The notes beneath the pieces are model-generated. The model was not told the origin of the DNA. It did no database searches and worked only from the letters and a program-made list of their open reading frames with translations. DNA of 64,000 nucleotides from Porphyra umbilicalis (lineage: Eukaryota; Rhodophyta; Bangiophyceae; Bangiales; Bangiaceae): contig KV918971.1 in assembly GCA_002049455.2 (NCBI GenBank), positions 62,001-126,000 of the forward strand, given 5' to 3'. The translations under genes and the position numbers were made by a program. Shown here in pieces: positions 43,195 to 60,000 of this stretch (position 1 is the first letter of the stretch; each line of letters begins with the position of its first letter).

Positions 43195-43330
43195 TACAGC
43201 CGTTGTCTCAAAAACCTGGCACGCCGACTGTTGCACCACTGTCACAAATCGGCCTCTGCGACCCCGTGAAGGCCGATTTGTCAGAGTGGTGCGACAGTTG
43301 GCGTGCGAGGTTTTTGCGAGAACGGCTGTA
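43195..43330. mobile_element. Foldback MITE, copy 1 (subtype A)
   Basis: 136 bp that folds back on itself almost end to end. It begins TACAGCCGTT and ends AACGGCTGTA, with a small central loop between CGGCCTCTGCG and AAGGCCGA. The outermost TA on each side fits a TA target duplication with a CAGCCGTT terminus. No coding capacity. Confidence 0.85.
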
Positions 43331-43563: not shown

Positions 43564-43699
43564 TACAGCCGTTCTCTGAAAAATCCCGGACTGGAACCGT
43601 TCCAAAAGTTTTCCAAATCGGCCTCTGCGGGGTCGTAGAGGCCGATTTGGAACTCTTTTGCAACATTTGGAGTGCGGGAGTTTTGGGAGAACGGCTGTA
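43564..43699. mobile_element. Foldback MITE, copy 2 (subtype B)
   Basis: Same termini and architecture as copy 1, but the centre reads GCGGGGTCGTAGAGGCCGA rather than GCGACCCCGTGAAGGCCGA. Just outside, GTGCGCACT on the left and AGTGTGCGCAC on the right extend the inverted symmetry. Confidence 0.85.
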
Positions 43700-44505: not shown

Positions 44506-47500
44506 ATGATGGCCTGCTTGTGGAGGATCTGTCTTGGCCGGAGCCCTGATGAGCGTGCCGCGGTCTCTACATCGGCGGCGGCGCCGACTTCGGCAAAGGT
44601 GTCGACGGCGGCTGGCGACGGCAAGCCATGTACCCGTCTGAGAGGCAATCACGACGTGCACAAATCGGTGCGTCTGTCGTCACCTACTCTCCTCGCAACT
44701 CCATCATCACCCGCATCCGTGGGTGCCAGTCATTGTGCCGGTACCGTAGGAAGCCTTCCTCTCGTGGCTGGCGCTGCTACGGAGCGCCACTCGTCTCCTG
44801 ATGGCGGTCTTTCTCCTGGCTGCACTGACGGGGAGCATGTGCCGTCACCTGCGCCCTTTGAAAGTGTCACTGCGAGTGTCCATGCCGCTGGCGCGAGCGA
44901 TGCTGCGGCCGCTTCGCCTCACCGTAATATTGGCGTGGATGATCACGCACATGGTGACGGGGGCTATGGCACCGCTGACAAGGTCTCGGGCGCCGTCAGC
45001 TGCGGACACACCGACTGGCGTGACCAAGTGCCGGGCAGAGGCTACTCGCTGACTACGTTTCGAGTGACGTCATGTGTGCACCCCACTCGCAAGATCGCCC
45101 CTGGCTCCGAGGTGCACGCGTGCCTTGGCCGCAACGTCTACGTGTTGTGGAGCAGTCCCCGGCGCGGGGTGCCGACGACGGTTGATGACTTCCGCGCGGC
45201 TGGCCCGTCGTGCATTGTCTTAGAGCGGGGTGCTGGCGCGCTGCGGGTTGCGAGCCAGGATGAGGGCGCAGCTGGTAGTGTACTCCACACCGACCGCCTG
45301 CTGTTCGTACGAGGCAAGGAGCGCACCTCCATTTTCAGCGACCAAGACGTGTCGGACGTGCAGCTGCTGCTCGAGGCGCCGTCGGCGGGTCTGTGCGCAT
45401 CCTGGGTGACGGGCGGGGCATCGTTCCTGACCCCATGGGAGGCGCTACTGGGCGCCGGCTTGACCGATTGGAATGACGCGACGTGCGTGCATGAGGTGCT
45501 GATGTCGATGTTGCCACCGCTCCCGGAGGCCGCGGACGACCACCAGGGCTTCGCATCAAGGATACTAGGGCGTCGCGGACGGCATTTTGTGCTCAATGCG
45601 CAGCACTGGCTGGCGCCGTCGGCCTCTGTGGGGCTGGCTGGTGCTAGTGCCATCGGCACAGCGGCGGACACGGTCGACCAAGTGCCGGTCGTCGGACCTG
45701 TGCTGCGCCTATGTCTCCTCGTCGTTCAAGTTGGCACTCTGGCGGTGTTAGCGGACGGTCATGACGCTCGGCGCAAGGACGCGGTTCAGAGGTGCGAGGC
45801 CATAGCCTTTGACGTGCTCTGTCGCATCTTTGAACAATTGCGCAAGGACCCGACCGAGTTTGGGGCTGCTTATGTTGAGCAGCTGTGCTCGTTGATGGCT
45901 CAAGTTGGAAGCATTCTGGAGCAGGTGGAGGCGACGTCCTTCATGACGCCGGTCAAGGACATGATGGCGGACGCTATTGTGCACGGCTGGGAGCAGCAGC
46001 TCAAGGACATCCACGACAAGCTGATCAACTCGAGCGTGCACGGTGCGGTTGGCCGTGCGGTTGACCGGGTGGAGCACGGCGTGGGCGGGTTGATGAAGCG
46101 GATGTGCGAGCTGGGGCGGAACCTGGCCGGAAGCCTCCCCTCGGAGCCGGACCTATCCATGTACGAGGTGGGCTGGCTGCCTCCCGTGCTGGGTGGCGGT
46201 CACGTGGCGGGCGTCGACAAGCATGGCCGTGTCGAGCACGCCATCGTGTCGATGCTCGAGGGCTACGCTCGTGAAGGAGCGGCCGAGGCCCCTCGGATCG
46301 GTGTTTATGGCATTGGTGGTTGTGGCAAGTCAACTGCCTGTGCAGAGGTGGCCACGTGCGAGCGGGTGCGGACACTGTTCCCGCTGGGCACGGTCTGGGT
46401 ACAGCTCAGCGACACATCTACCTCGGAGACAGTCGCCACCGCCATATTGGCGCTCGTGTACCGCTTTTGTGGAGAGGCGGCCACCAAACGCTGTCAGCAG
46501 CTGACGGGCCGCAAGGACTTTGTAGCGCTGGCTGCTTCAGACTTTCAGGCGTCCTTGATGGTGGATGCGTCGAAATGGCTCATCATCATCGATGACGTAC
46601 GCTACGAACAGGTCGGAATGCTGACACAGCTGCTGCTGGTCGTGTCGCGGACTACCCCGGTGTTGTTCACCACGCGGTCCCAGATAGTCGTCGCTTTGGT
46701 AACAGGCGCGGTGCGGTTGTCAATTAGCTCGTGGCCTGAAGATGATGCTCGGGCGCTGCTGGCTAGAGCAATCGGCAAGCGGCCTAGAGCAATCGGCAAG
46801 CGGCCAACCGAGAACGAGCCCGTGTTCTCGGCGGAGGAGGAGGCCGCGTGGGTACGGCGGGTGCTGGACCTGACGCAGTGCCATGTTCTGTCTGTGAGCA
46901 TCGTCGCGGCCCTGCTGTCGGCGCGCTGCGGAATGTGGAGGCCGATAGTGGCGGCGCTGGAGCACCAATGGACGGACCCCTCTTTTCAACGTCCTTTGAC
47001 GGACATGAACCCGATGCGCTCCGTGCGAGCGACGCTTGATGTGAGCCGAGGGTATCTCCCTAACGACGACTACCGCAGGGCTTTTGCAGCGGTTGGCATC
47101 TTGCCCGCCAACGAGCAGATTGGCTTGCACGTGCTCGATCGCCTGTGGCGACCGCAACTCGGTGTCATCGGTGATGCGGCTGAGGGTGCGTGCCCCTCAC
47201 GCTTGAAAAGGCGCAGTGACGGCAGCGACGCGGTCCACCCAAGCACTCTTCGGCTCCTAGATGCTCTTGTCCGGGCCGGGCTCCTTCATCTTGAGGTCGC
47301 TGATGGGGACCTTGCGGGCGTAGTTATTCACCCGGTCGTCTGTGGCTATGCCCACAGCTTGCTTTGTGAAGACGGCGTTGCCACCCATCATCGTCTGGTG
47401 CATGAGTACACCAGGGAATGTCCCGCAGATGACGCGGACACGCATGGGTGGCTGAGTTACCATGTTTGGGCAGCCGCTGACGATGGCTACTGGTACAACA

Positions 47501-49530
47501 ACGTAGCGCGGCATGCCGCGGCAAGCGAGGACGTCCTTGCGCTGGCGTCCTTGATGACTGATGAGTGGTATGCTGCTCGTGCGCGGACGGGGTCACTCGT
47601 CGGGCACCAAGCAGATGTGGCGCTCGTGCTGGCGTCGCTACGTGCTATCGTTGATGACGAGGATCACTCGGCGCACAACTCCCCTATGCTGCTGGGCGCC
47701 GCACACTGGGGTCTGGCCATGGGCTTGCTCCACTACAAGGGGTACCAGACGGCAGCAATCCAGGAGGCTGCCGTCATCCTGCTGCGGAGAGGGCTGGATG
47801 AGGTATCGCAAGCCGCTGCTCCGTTTCTATGGGCCGAGATGCAGAACGACTTGGGCAATGTGTATTCGTACCGGGTCAATGGCGACAAGGCGGCCAACTT
47901 CCAGAAAGCGGTTCGCTGTTACTACAACGCGCTGGAGGTGCGGATGCAGGACACGCTTGCATGGGCAGAGACCCAGCACTGCTTGGGTATGGCGTACGCG
48001 GACCGGGAAGGTGGCAACAAGGCGGCAAACATGGAGGAGGCGTTGGCGTATTTCCGTCGCGCCCTCGACGTACGCACGCGGGACGCGGCGCCGCTGCAAT
48101 GGGCCGACTCAAACCTTAAGATGGGTGCGGCCTACGCTGCGCGGGTGGACGGTGGCAGGGCAGCAAACCTGCAGGAGGCGATGGCATGCTACCGGCGAGC
48201 CCTCGAGGTGTGGACGCGTGAGACGGCGCCGCTACAATGGGCAGCGGCCCAGCAGAACATGGGCAGAGCGTGTGCTGAGCGGGTGAGCGGCAACAAGGCG
48301 GCTAACATTGAAGAAGCGGTGGCGTTCTACCGCCGCGCCCTCCACGTGCGGACTCGAGAAGCAGTACCGCTTTCGTGGGCGCTGACTTAGCATTGCCTGG
48401 GCTTAGCGTACGCGCAGCGGGTTCATGGTGAGAAGGCGGCTAACTTGGAGGAGGCGGTGATATGCTTCGGGCACGTTCTTGACGTCTGGACGAGGGAGTC
48501 GATGCCGCTCGAGTGGGCCACTACGCAGCTCGAGCTGGCCGAGATTTATGAGCGGCGGATGGGCGTCGACAAAGACGCTCAACAAGCCAACATGAAGGAG
48601 ATGTTGGCGTGCTACCGCCGCACACTCGAGGTGTGGACGCGGGAGACCGCGCCTTATTCCTGGGCACGAATGCAGGACCGCATGGGCTCCACGCGTACGC
48701 TTGGGGTTGACCGCGACAAGGCTGAAAACTTGGAGGCGGCGGTAGCGTGCTACCGGCGCGCACTCGAAGTGTGGACGCAGGAGACGACGCCGCAGCAATG
48801 GGCCACGACGCAGGTCCGCCTGGCCGACATTTACAAGCTGCAGATGGAAGACGATAAGGAGGCTGACGAGGCCAAGATAGCAGAGATGAAGGAGTGTTAC
48901 CGCCGCGCGCTCGAGGTGTGGACTCGGGAGACGGCACCGACGTCCTGGGCGGAGACTCTAAGCAGCATGGGCTCGGCATGTGTGCGGTGCGTCGGCTGCG
49001 ACATGGCGGCCAGCATGGAGGAGGCGTTGTCGTGCTTCGGGCGCGTCCTCCAAGTTTGGACGCGAGATGCGGCGCCGCGGCAGTGGGCGTTGATGCAGGT
49101 CAACATGGCCTACGTGCACAGGCGGCGGGCGAGTGGCGGCGCGGCAGCAAACTTGGAGGAGGCGTTGGTATGTTACCAGAACGCCCTCGAGGTGTTGACG
49201 CGGGAGCATGATGCGCAGCTATGGGCCGGAGTGCAGTACAGTATGGGCACTGCGTACGCGGAGCGGGTGTACGGCGACAAGGCGGCCAATTTGGAAGAGG
49301 CGGTGGCGTGCTACCGGCACGCACTCGAGGTGCGGACGCAGGAGGCGACCCCGCAGTTGTGGGCCAAGACGACGTGGTGCATGGTGGTTGCGCTCCAAGG
49401 TGGCGAGCGTTGGGCGCAGGCGTTGGAGAAAGCCCGCGCCTTGCAGGCCTTTGGGAGCGGGTGGAAGCAGTGGGACCAGATGGAAGCCCCTCTCGTCGCT
49501 CGAGTGACGCAGCTGGAGCGCGAGGTTTAA
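44506..49530 (+). CDS. NLR-like STAND ATPase: helical N-terminus, NB-ARC, TPR repeats; one in-frame TAG
   Basis: The start is ATG 44506 (MMACLWRICLGRSPDERAAV). Residues 1-~350 are unrecognised. Residues ~390-545 (VPVVGPVLRLCLLVVQVGTL, later helices around VEQLCSLMAQVGSILEQ) look like an amphipathic helical bundle similar in style to MLKL/HeLo/RPW8-type cell-death domains. The NB-ARC module follows: P-loop GIGGCGKST (~602), hhhDD Walker B LIIIDDV (~696), LFTTRS (~720), and a winged-helix-like segment (~840-950). Eleven TPR-like repeats of ~46 residues with consensus GxKAANLEEAVACYRRALEV start near residue 1110. TAG at 48388-48390 replaces the Gln of a WAxTQHCLG-type repeat; the same frame then continues to TAA 49530. 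STAND NLRs sense a ligand through repeats and oligomerise on ATP binding. The pairing here suggests a stress or immune sensor, an inference. A 21-bp tandem duplication lies near 46763-46804. Confidence 0.75.
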
Positions 49531-54446: not shown

Positions 54447-54581
54447 TACAGCCGTTCTCACAAAAGCCTCGCACCCCAACTGTTGCACCTCTCTTACAAA
54501 TCGGCCTCTGCGACCCCGTGAAGGCCGATTCGTAAGAGTTGTGCAACTGTTGGCGTGCGAGTTTTTGCGAGAACGGCTGTA
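54447..54581. mobile_element. Foldback MITE, copy 3 (subtype A)
   Basis: 135 bp with the TACAGCCGTTCTC / AACGGCTGTA termini and the subtype A centre (GCGACCCCGTGAAGGCCGA). It is closely related to copy 1, about 11 kb away. Confidence 0.85.
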
Positions 54582-54833: not shown

Positions 54834-54969
54834 TACAGCCGTTCTCCGAATATTCCCGCACTCCAACTGTTGCAAAACAGTTCAAAATCGGACTCTGCGG
54901 GGTCGTAGAGGCCGATTTGGAACTCTTTTGCAACTGTTGGAGTGCGCGATTTTTTGGAGAACGGCTGTA
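54834..54969. mobile_element. Foldback MITE, copy 4 (subtype B)
   Basis: 136 bp with the same termini and the subtype B centre (GCGGGGTCGTAGAGGCCGA). It is closely related to copy 2 and lies 252 bp from copy 3, much like the 233-bp gap between copies 1 and 2. Confidence 0.85.
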
Positions 54970-57722: not shown

Positions 57723-60000
57723 CGCGGATTTCGGGCTGGCGGTGCCCGACCGGACGCCGCCGCCTTCCGCCTCCATCCGGTCATATGGGGACCCTTCGTC
57801 GGTTTCCAGCGGATCCAGGTCTGCCTCCCCCACGGCACCTGGCCCGCAACCTCTCGCCGCCCGTCCGGCTGCCACTCGGTCGGCCGGTGTCTTCCGGGCG
57901 GCGGGTCGCCGTCCTGGCCCAGTGCGTCGTGCCCCGCCCCTGGTAGCTTCCCGCCATCCGGAAATGCCTCGCCCGCCACCTCCCCAGCTGAGCCATTTGG
58001 AGGGTACGCCGGCTCTCCACGCCCGCCTGCGGGCGGCACTCCCCGAGTGGATCAAGATGGGGGCGCCGCCCTGGGTGCTCCGGGCGATCCGCGACGGCGT
58101 GCCGTTGCCGTGGCGGTCGGCGCCCCCGCCGCACCGCGCCGCGCCATACCAATTGACCGACGTGTGGCATACCTTGGCCGTGCAGGAGGCCCAGCGCTGG
58201 TGTGCGGCGGGGTTTGCTCGGCGGCTGTCTCGTCGGGAGGCCGCGACTGCTCCGTGGGCGAGTCCGGCCTTTGTGGCGGACCGACACCGCAAGCCCCGCC
58301 TTTTGATCGACCTCAAATACGCCAACAGTTTTCTGCACGACAAGCCGTTTGCGTACGAGAGCCTAGCGTTATTTCCTGTCCCAGCTGCACCCCGACGAAT
58401 GCATGGTCAGCTGGGACGTGAAAGACGCCTTTCACCACCTCTCCCTCCAACCACACGACCGTCCCCGCCTCGTATTCCGGGTGGGGCAGCGCTTCTACGA
58501 GCCTCTCACGTTGCCCTTTGGGCTCAAGCTGGCTCCCTGGGCGTGGACCAAGCTTTGCCGCCCGATCCTACAGCGGTTGCAGCACCTCGGCTTCTGTTTG
58601 ATTGGCTACATGGACGACTTTTTGTGCCGCCCGCCGGGGGAGTCGCCGACCTCCGCGGCGTCGGCGACCGCGGGTCGGTGCGACGCGTTGGCGCTTTTCT
58701 CCCTCTTGGGTCTTGCGGTCCACCCCACGAAGGGCGCCGTGACGGGGACCCGGCGGCTGGCGGCCTTGGGCTACCTCATCGACACCTCGGCGCGGACGCT
58801 CCTTCTCCCGCCGACGCGCTTGACCAAGGTTCTTCTCTCGGCGCGCGCGCTTCTCGCCGAGTCGGCGTCTCGTCGCCGCTGGGTCGGCAATCGCCGTTTG
58901 CAGCGGTTTTGTGGCCTCGCCATGTCGACGGCCCTAGCCGTCCCGATGGCGCGCTTCCGTCTCCGCCGCCTGTACGACACCACGTCGGCGGCGGCTTCGG
59001 GCTCCGACTCCCGGCTGACCGAAGGCAGCCGCGCAGATTTGCACTGGTGGTCAACGCTGACGATGCCGGGGCGCATCGGTCGCCTCCTCTGGCAGGAGAC
59101 GGTCACCGTGGAGTTGACGACGGACGCGTCCCTGACGGGGTGGGGCGCCGTTTGCGACCGCGGCCTGCCTGCCCGTGGCCTCTTTGGCCCGGAGCGCGCG
59201 CTCGACCCGATCAACCTCAAAGAACTCGTGGCGGTCCGCCTGGCCGTCGAGTCCTTCCCGGCGGCGGTCGCGCGGGGGGGGCTGATTCGGGTCCGATGCG
59301 ACAACATGGTGGTCGTGGCGGTGCTCAACGCCATGTCCTCTCGGAGCCCGGCACTGATGGCCGAGCTCCGTCTGCTCGTGGCCCTTTTGCGCCGACTGGG
59401 GTGCCGGCTGGAGGCGTCCTGGCTCCCCACGGCGGAGAATATTTGGGCGGACAAACTTTCGCGGGACCAGGATTCGACGGATTGGCGCCTCAACCGGTCG
59501 GTCTTCCAGACCCTCAACGCCGCGTGGGGTCCTTGCGGCGTGGACCGTTTCGCGACGGCGTCGACCTCGATGCTGCCTGTTTTCAACTCGCTGGTGCACC
59601 ACCCCCGCTCGGCCGCCGTCGACGGTTGGGCGCAAGACTGGGGGGGGTCCATCATCAACTACGTGAGCCCCCCCTTCTCCCAGGCGGCGCTCGTCATCCG
59701 CAAGATCGTGCGGGATCGGGCCTCCGCGGTCGTGGTTTTGCCGGCGTGGCCCGCCCAAGTATGGTGGGCGGTAACCCTTACCGGGCCAACACGGCGGTCT
59801 TCCTCCCCGCCTCCGCCGCGCTTTACACGCGCGGCGGCTCGACTTTGCCCGCGCACCCGCCACTCTGGCGGACGATCGCCCTGCTGTACCGCGTGGGCGG
59901 TCTCCCGTGGCCGCGTTGGAGTGGTGCGGCCACGCCCACGCCGCGGCCGTGGACGGATTTGACGGGTTGGACGGCGCCGACGAGGCGGCCCGGATGCTGA
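57619..60000 (+). pseudogene. Reverse transcriptase / RNase H polyprotein with two frame changes
   Basis: The frame opens at ATG 57619 (MATLGGGGASATG), overlapping the gag end in another phase. The RT N-terminus (ASPAFVADRHRKPRLLIDLK) runs to about 58365. There the frame changes by one base, and the palm continues as MVSWDVKDAFHHLSL, then FGLKLAPWAWTKL and the catalytic GYMDDFL near 58606. RNase H follows with LTTDASLTGWGAV (59113) and a later LKELVAVRLAVE. The C-terminal part resembles the DIRS region ending PAWPAQVWW (~59740-59766). There the frame seems to change back, reaching TGA 59998-60000, which overlaps the recombinase start. Two compensating one-base changes would restore the original phase. 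Identity as DIRS-type RT is secure; activity of this copy is doubtful. Confidence 0.8.

Follow-up and report, generated by a model that had tools for sequence, protein, structure and literature searches.

A red-algal NLR-like gene family with a conserved N-terminal module and diversifying positions in its predicted TPR groove

In a 64,000-nucleotide stretch of Porphyra umbilicalis DNA (the window, whose positions are used throughout), we analyzed a plus-strand gene at 44506-49530 that encodes an NB-ARC ATPase followed by tetratricopeptide repeats (TPRs), together with the family to which it belongs. We consider this family to be, with somewhat better than even probability, a large set of red-algal signal transduction ATPases with numerous domains (STAND) that act as receptors, resemble nucleotide-binding leucine-rich repeat receptors (NLRs), and direct an N-terminal output to the membrane. 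We favor this reading because a conserved ATPase and N-terminus are joined to a repeat groove that is changing by selection. The window copy itself is probably truncated.

Gene architecture and family size

Reading from 44506, we found a frame that is open up to an in-frame TAG and then continues to a TAA (Table 1; residues are counted from the Met at 44506). The original prediction had treated this span as one gene, but the TAG means that it is not a single open reading frame. Translation more likely begins at the second Met, 44509, because it aligns with the Met of the relatives (18 of the 18 rows with a letter there). In a Pfam scan of the window protein, NB-ARC (PF00931) scored 52 bits, far over the cut-off of 23.5 (E 7.8e-14, residues 597-762), and the predicted P-loop GIGGCGKST, LIIIDDV, and LFTTRS all lie in frame (positions in Table 1). 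The eleven TPRs that had been proposed were likewise recovered. They are about 46 residues long and start at residues 1109, 1153, 1199, 1245, 1291, 1337, 1386, 1432, 1481, 1527, and 1573, with 44, 46, or 49 residues between starts; repeats 4 and 5 came out as one stretch, because the stop breaks the search pattern, and were split by hand at 1291. TPR_12 reached 60.5 bits in the piece after the TAG (cut-off 30.1, E 1.8e-16), and TPR_1 reached 23.5 bits in the piece before it, under its cut-off of 27.8. No leucine-rich repeat (LRR) model matched either piece at E up to 5, where only TPR and lesser cross-matches appeared.

The genome comprises 83.8 million bases in 665 contigs. Its origin, given earlier as an apparent red alga, was borne out by the phycobilisome linker domain (PF00427): of 12 matches, four lie on the plastid-like contig C665, three of them in one frame, and the remaining eight are spread over seven further contigs. 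Linkers in nuclear contigs therefore mark the host as a red alga. Searching the genome with the NB-ARC region gave 54 rows, which we merged by hand into about 44 loci after removing a duplicate contig (C390, see below) and two weak WD40-family matches. The N-terminus gave 42 rows, corresponding to at least 26 loci with the window included and C390 excluded; search counts of this kind are lower bounds. Both the NB-ARC core and this N-terminus were present at 25 loci, the 26th N-terminal locus (C116) having no NB-ARC row, and tblastn placed TPRs past residue 1160 in 27 clusters besides C390 in the sequence examined. Among loci with no N-terminal row, several are fragments, and nine are short family genes in which neither the upstream frames nor the N-terminus search showed such an N-terminus.

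Fifteen of the 26 N-terminal loci are open throughout the sequence examined, which stops short of the gene end in most, and a stop, frameshift, or insert leaves the other 11 broken or partial (the window, C200, C369, C83, C66, C69:8134, C11, C185, C439, C79, and C116), although some frameshifts may be assembly errors. Large, partly broken families are typical of immune genes that evolve by birth and death. C83 and C185 are broken at the same place, about codon 454, by repeat-rich inserts of about 1.3 and 0.9 kb. An intron there was rejected, as the inserts are repeat-rich and no GT-AG pair was seen by eye at the breaks. The last 167 bp of the C185 insert match window 45872-46038 at 96% identity, and an NB-ARC-like fragment lies within the C83 insert; it looks as if an element had carried along pieces of family genes.

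The genome also holds a second NB-ARC family, with WD40 repeats in four of the six proteins scanned; the frames of the other two end before any repeat. This family has a long N-terminus of its own, in which a PH profile matches the final strand and helix (P 0.0011, 0 of 99 shuffles, 19 columns).

Selection

Six or seven close relatives, including the window gene, were compared by simple counting without a codon model, and the pairs within this set share history. Three of the genes carry a stop (window, C200, and C369); stop codons were skipped, and C83 was used only after its insert. Among six of these relatives (10 or 15 pairs), the ratio of nonsynonymous to synonymous substitution rates (dN/dS) was 0.23 for NB, 0.29 for the N-terminal helical region, 0.34 for the beta-rich domain, 0.34 for ARC, 0.46 for the TPRs, and 0.66 for the linker at residues 15-172. 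In 40-codon windows over 371-490, it was 0.16-0.21. By these counts, the N-terminus and the ATPase are under purifying selection, and it is the low dN/dS of its helical and beta-rich parts that indicates that the N-terminus is being kept.

In canonical TPR numbering, positions 2, 5, 9, 12, and 13 of helix A lie on the inner face. When we pooled the eleven repeats (21 pairs, seven genes), the ratio of nonsynonymous to synonymous differences per site (pN/pS) was 1.38 at these groove positions versus 0.46 at the rest. The values were 1.72 versus 0.52 for repeats 4-11 and 0.53 versus 0.31 for repeats 1-3. None of 2000 random five-position sets reached the groove ratio or its pN, and sliding the repeat register from -4 to +30 gave a ratio of at most 0.92. 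The excess was also found in three non-overlapping pairs (1.06 versus 0.43, Fisher P 1.2e-5), in three relatives that are open over all sequence examined (C145, C186, and C106; 1.76 versus 0.46), and after removal of the window gene (1.62 versus 0.46). Diversifying change of this kind at a predicted ligand groove is what a receptor engaged in an arms race would show.

The N-terminal module

Twenty N-termini aligned well among family loci (20 sequences for the helical region, alignment A2, and 19 for the beta-rich domain, A1, and for A3; the broken or partial C83, C69:8134, C11, C185, C439, and C116 were left out together with C390, as was C79 from A1 and A3). The module opens with a short motif in which, counting rows with a letter, Met is found in 18 of 18, Trp in 13 of 18, Cys in 16 of 19, and Leu or Phe in 19 of 19. 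In many relatives, Gly and then Arg-rich residues follow; the window copy has few Arg there. From its Cys, this motif is a candidate membrane anchor through S-acylation. Beyond a poorly conserved linker, the beta-rich domain (residues 176-335) has 11 invariant columns in 19 sequences; for residues 345-520, with 20 sequences aligned, seven columns are invariant and a further 24 nearly so. A single-sequence structure model of residues 345-545 placed helices at 376-390, 396-417, 421-447, 452-473, 477-508, and 512-543, although the model is poor (predicted local distance difference test (pLDDT) 49.9, predicted template modeling score (pTM) 0.45); that of the beta-rich domain (pLDDT 33.6) is useless. 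The second of these helices is strongly hydrophobic. Its best 19-residue hydropathy mean is 2.06 in the window protein and 1.71-2.19 across all 20 aligned members, the classical threshold for membrane-spanning helices being 1.6; a single further 19-residue stretch of the window protein, at 786, passes that value. The predicted helical N-terminus thus holds for the second half of the module, with its conserved helix of membrane grade, but the other half is beta-rich.

No Pfam family matched the N-terminal 545 residues of the window protein at E up to 5. Scanning the N-termini of 19 members returned nothing for MLKL, HeLo, RPW8, or PH, and the matches that did appear were single and mixed: FPN1 (E 0.0029) and Rx_N (E 0.0096) in one member each, GH3 (E 0.22) in two, and two more at or above 0.1. 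We also compared profiles by hhalign with column shuffles, using reference sequences for MLKL, ADR1, and seven PH domains. The helical region scored 14.8 against MLKL and 16.1 against ADR1, values reached by five and three of 40 shuffles, respectively, and in both cases the aligned stretch of the algal profile was the same, starting at column 85 or 86. The beta-rich domain scored 16.7 against PH (P 0.056, probability 1%, 0 of 40 shuffles), a match covering just 18 columns that comprise the last strand and the helix with its Trp. Crossed comparisons behaved as chance (beta-rich domain versus MLKL and ADR1, 16 of 40 each; helical region versus PH, 23 of 40), and structure comparison of the N-terminal model by VIA-align gave unspecific rows. 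These profile likenesses are hints, short of membership, and a PH-like nature of the beta-rich domain is only suggested. For the kinship with MLKL, HeLo, or RPW8 cell-death domains that the original prediction had proposed, the Pfam and profile comparisons gave no convincing match, and the six-helix model is too poor to place the helical region among four-helix bundles. Its remark that the first ~350 residues match nothing familiar stands as far as Pfam families go, but the N-terminal region recurs at 26 or more loci of this genome.

The window copy

The TAG falls at position 4 of TPR 5, a position occupied by Gln in eight of the 10 other repeats of the window gene. A recoded codon was rejected, as the stops of relatives (C200, C369, C439, C69, and C3) lie elsewhere and are TAG or TAA. 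In a protein-level search, C390 resembled a diverged pseudogene copy (six stops, 69% identity); at the DNA level, it is the same locus. The contig end at C390 57905-64034 repeats the window locus, the two differing almost solely by short gaps (blastn: 6156 columns, 0 mismatches, 25 gap openings; mafft: two mismatches plus gaps). C390 is an unpolished duplicate contig that inflates the counts of genes and pseudogenes. Because it is the same locus, its TAG gives no independent support for the stop, and we dropped it from all selection counts.

Changes private to the window gene, given as replacement:silent, are 7:2 after the stop versus 1:7 in the TPRs before it, 10:3 in the N-terminus, and 4:6 in NB-ARC. 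From these small counts, we read the gene as on its way out. The window copy may well be a pseudogene with no present function, which we hold to be the likelier state of this copy and which is compatible with a receptor role for the family. The TAG appears in each of the two contigs spanning the locus, and within the TPRs the private changes are mostly silent before the stop and mostly replacements after it. Against this stand the 1294 codons that precede the TAG and retain the N-terminus, NB-ARC, and four TPRs, the open frame that remains to 49530, and the fact that the counts are small and the two contigs not independent. Because of the premature stop, the "complete" sensor, switch, and executioner that had been envisaged does not describe the window copy and can apply only to intact relatives.

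Locus features and surroundings

Conservation of the NB-ARC motifs in Table 1 was taken from a 444-residue core alignment (A4) of 20 sequences from the ~44 loci. We take LFTTRS to be an RNBS-B-like sensor motif, and the His of IHPVV is presumably the equivalent of the winged-helix His of MHD motifs. A tandem copy of RAIGKRP at 46765-46806, in the NB-ARC region, is carried by the window gene but by none of ten other aligned rows.

Table 1. Features of the gene in the window
Feature	Position	Strand	Basis and remarks
Extreme N-terminal motif MACLWRICLGRSPD	44509..44550	+	Residues 2-15; Met, Trp/aromatic, Cys, Leu/Phe
Low-complexity linker	44551..45021	+	Residues 16-172; poorly conserved
Conserved beta-rich domain	45031..45510	+	Residues 176-335; unclassified; strands assigned from residue pattern
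Conserved helical region	45538..46140	+	Residues 345-545
Hydrophobic helix VGPVLRLCLLVVQVGTLAVLAD	45691..45756	+	Residues 396-417; hydropathy, and helix in a poor model
NB-ARC ATPase	46294..46791	+	Pfam match, residues 597-762
Walker A GIGGCGKST	46309..46335	+	In frame; GG.GK invariant in 20/20 aligned
Walker B LIIIDDV	46579..46599	+	In frame; first D invariant, second at least 90% (20 aligned)
LFTTRS	46663..46680	+	In frame; F.TR invariant in 20/20 aligned
IHPVV	47326..47340	+	H, P, V invariant in 20/20 aligned
Eleven TPRs	47830..49359	+	Residues 1109-1618; helix-A positions 2, 5, 9, 12, 13 fast-evolving
In-frame TAG	48388-48390	+	Codon 1295, repeat 5; also in duplicate contig C390
TAA closing the continued frame	49528-49530	+	Frame reading

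Repeats of about 136 bp, in both orientations, flank the gene upstream (43195-43330 and 43564-43699) and about 5 kb downstream (54447-54581 and 54834-54969). Further along, one frame at 58403-59962 has a reverse transcriptase match (E 1.5e-10) together with a sub-threshold match to Dam methylase (E 1.5e-4), a combination known from DIRS/Ngaro-type retroelements.

Discussion

The sensor and the switch of the original prediction are well supported by NB-ARC, the eleven TPRs, and the change at the groove; the ligand, the act of switching, oligomerization, the membrane site, and killing are parts that we infer. In intact members, the inner groove of the TPR superhelix would bind a ligand that changes fast, the simplest candidate being a molecule from a pathogen, and binding would free NB-ARC for nucleotide exchange and assembly into oligomers. 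The N-terminal module would be held at the membrane by the Cys-containing start motif, perhaps also by the PH-like domain, and the output would occur there, with the conserved hydrophobic helix most likely inserting and causing death or an ion leak. This membrane output is the least certain step of the mechanism.

Several observations weigh against a receptor family of this kind. Taken alone, pN is as high at a register shift of -3 (0.344) as in the true register (0.341). In a second group (11 genes, six repeats), the groove effect has the same direction but is weaker (0.58 versus 0.32); of 5000 random sets, 89 attained the groove pN and 135 the groove ratio. In the window copy, TPR 5 contains a stop and the N-terminus shows the 10:3 private excess, and neither Pfam nor the profile and structure comparisons assigned the family's N-terminus a fold or family. 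Lastly, of the four NB-ARC+TPR genes listed for the related alga Pyropia yezoensis in excerpts of PMC6928737, three showed no significant change in severe red rot, an oomycete disease; the fourth was significantly up (2.31-fold), which speaks for the receptor reading.

The main competing explanation, which we find possible but the less probable, is that the N-terminal module is a membrane tether or adaptor and no executioner, the receptor signaling through partners. A Cys-containing start motif and a weak PH-like signal would suffice for this, and no pore-former family was matched. Yet a tether would not need a hydrophobic helix as conserved as this one, which exceeds 1.6 in 20 of 20 members and falls in the region where the 40-codon windows give a dN/dS of 0.16-0.21. 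A bolder version of the receptor reading, which we offer tentatively and would not put above the tether, is that the N-terminus is an unrecognized executioner: an acylated, PH-like-tethered helical bundle that inserts a hydrophobic helix and stands apart from, or far diverged from, MLKL, HeLo, and RPW8. The family would then be a self-contained red-algal NLR type with a TPR arms race, and the short forms lacking the N-terminus may be partners. That the family instead serves non-self recognition between algal individuals or cells, as fungal NLRs can, seems to us improbable: either role would suit a family that is large, partly broken, and diversifying at TPR positions, but induction of the one Pyropia gene by an oomycete (in the excerpts of PMC6928737) points to defense against microbes.

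Relative to known systems, the NLR-like receptors proposed here resemble plant CC/RPW8-type NLRs in having NB-ARC, a helical N-terminus, and a diversifying sensor; they differ in having TPRs where the plant proteins have LRRs and in giving no N-terminal profile match above chance to ADR1. Fungal NLRs with HeLo, Goodbye, or MLKL-like N-termini (PMC9815663, from excerpts, as are the sources below) also combine a helical N-terminus, NB-ARC or NACHT, and repeats under positive selection, but the algal N-terminus has no above-chance match to MLKL or ADR1 and carries a beta-rich domain and start motif before its helices. Brown-algal NB-ARC-TPR receptors (PMC11378527, PMC8307928) share the architecture, an expanded family, and variation in the repeats. 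They shuffle TPR exons, as in Ectocarpus (PMC11378527), whereas the eleven repeats of the window gene lie in one frame interrupted only by the TAG. For red algae, NB-ARC+TPR and NB-ARC+WD40 genes of P. yezoensis (PMC6928737), two NB-ARC families of P. umbilicalis (PMC8307928), and rhodophyte proteins with NB-ARC, WH-like, and APAF1_C domains (PMC8891106) are in print. The NB-ARC-TPR architecture is therefore not new. The published red-algal proteins (PMC6928737, PMC8307928) have NB-ARC followed by TPRs, beside an NB-ARC-WD40 family, as here; compared by description and not by sequence, the excerpts describe no conserved N-terminal module or site-wise selection. We found no description of either in the excerpts that we read from an open-access collection of papers. 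The view that NLR immunity is poorly described in this lineage holds only in part, since red-algal NB-ARC+TPR genes have already been reported, one of the four listed being oomycete-induced (PMC6928737).

What is new here is the selection at groove positions among close relatives and the conserved N-terminal module with its helix of membrane grade. The red-algal and green lineages diverged long before land plants arose, and the family bears on whether NLR-type immunity with an effector end of its own exists in red algae. By naming exact sites, five groove positions in each TPR and residues 396-417, the analysis makes algal immunity testable, in relatives of seaweeds that are farmed and suffer oomycete disease (PMC6928737).

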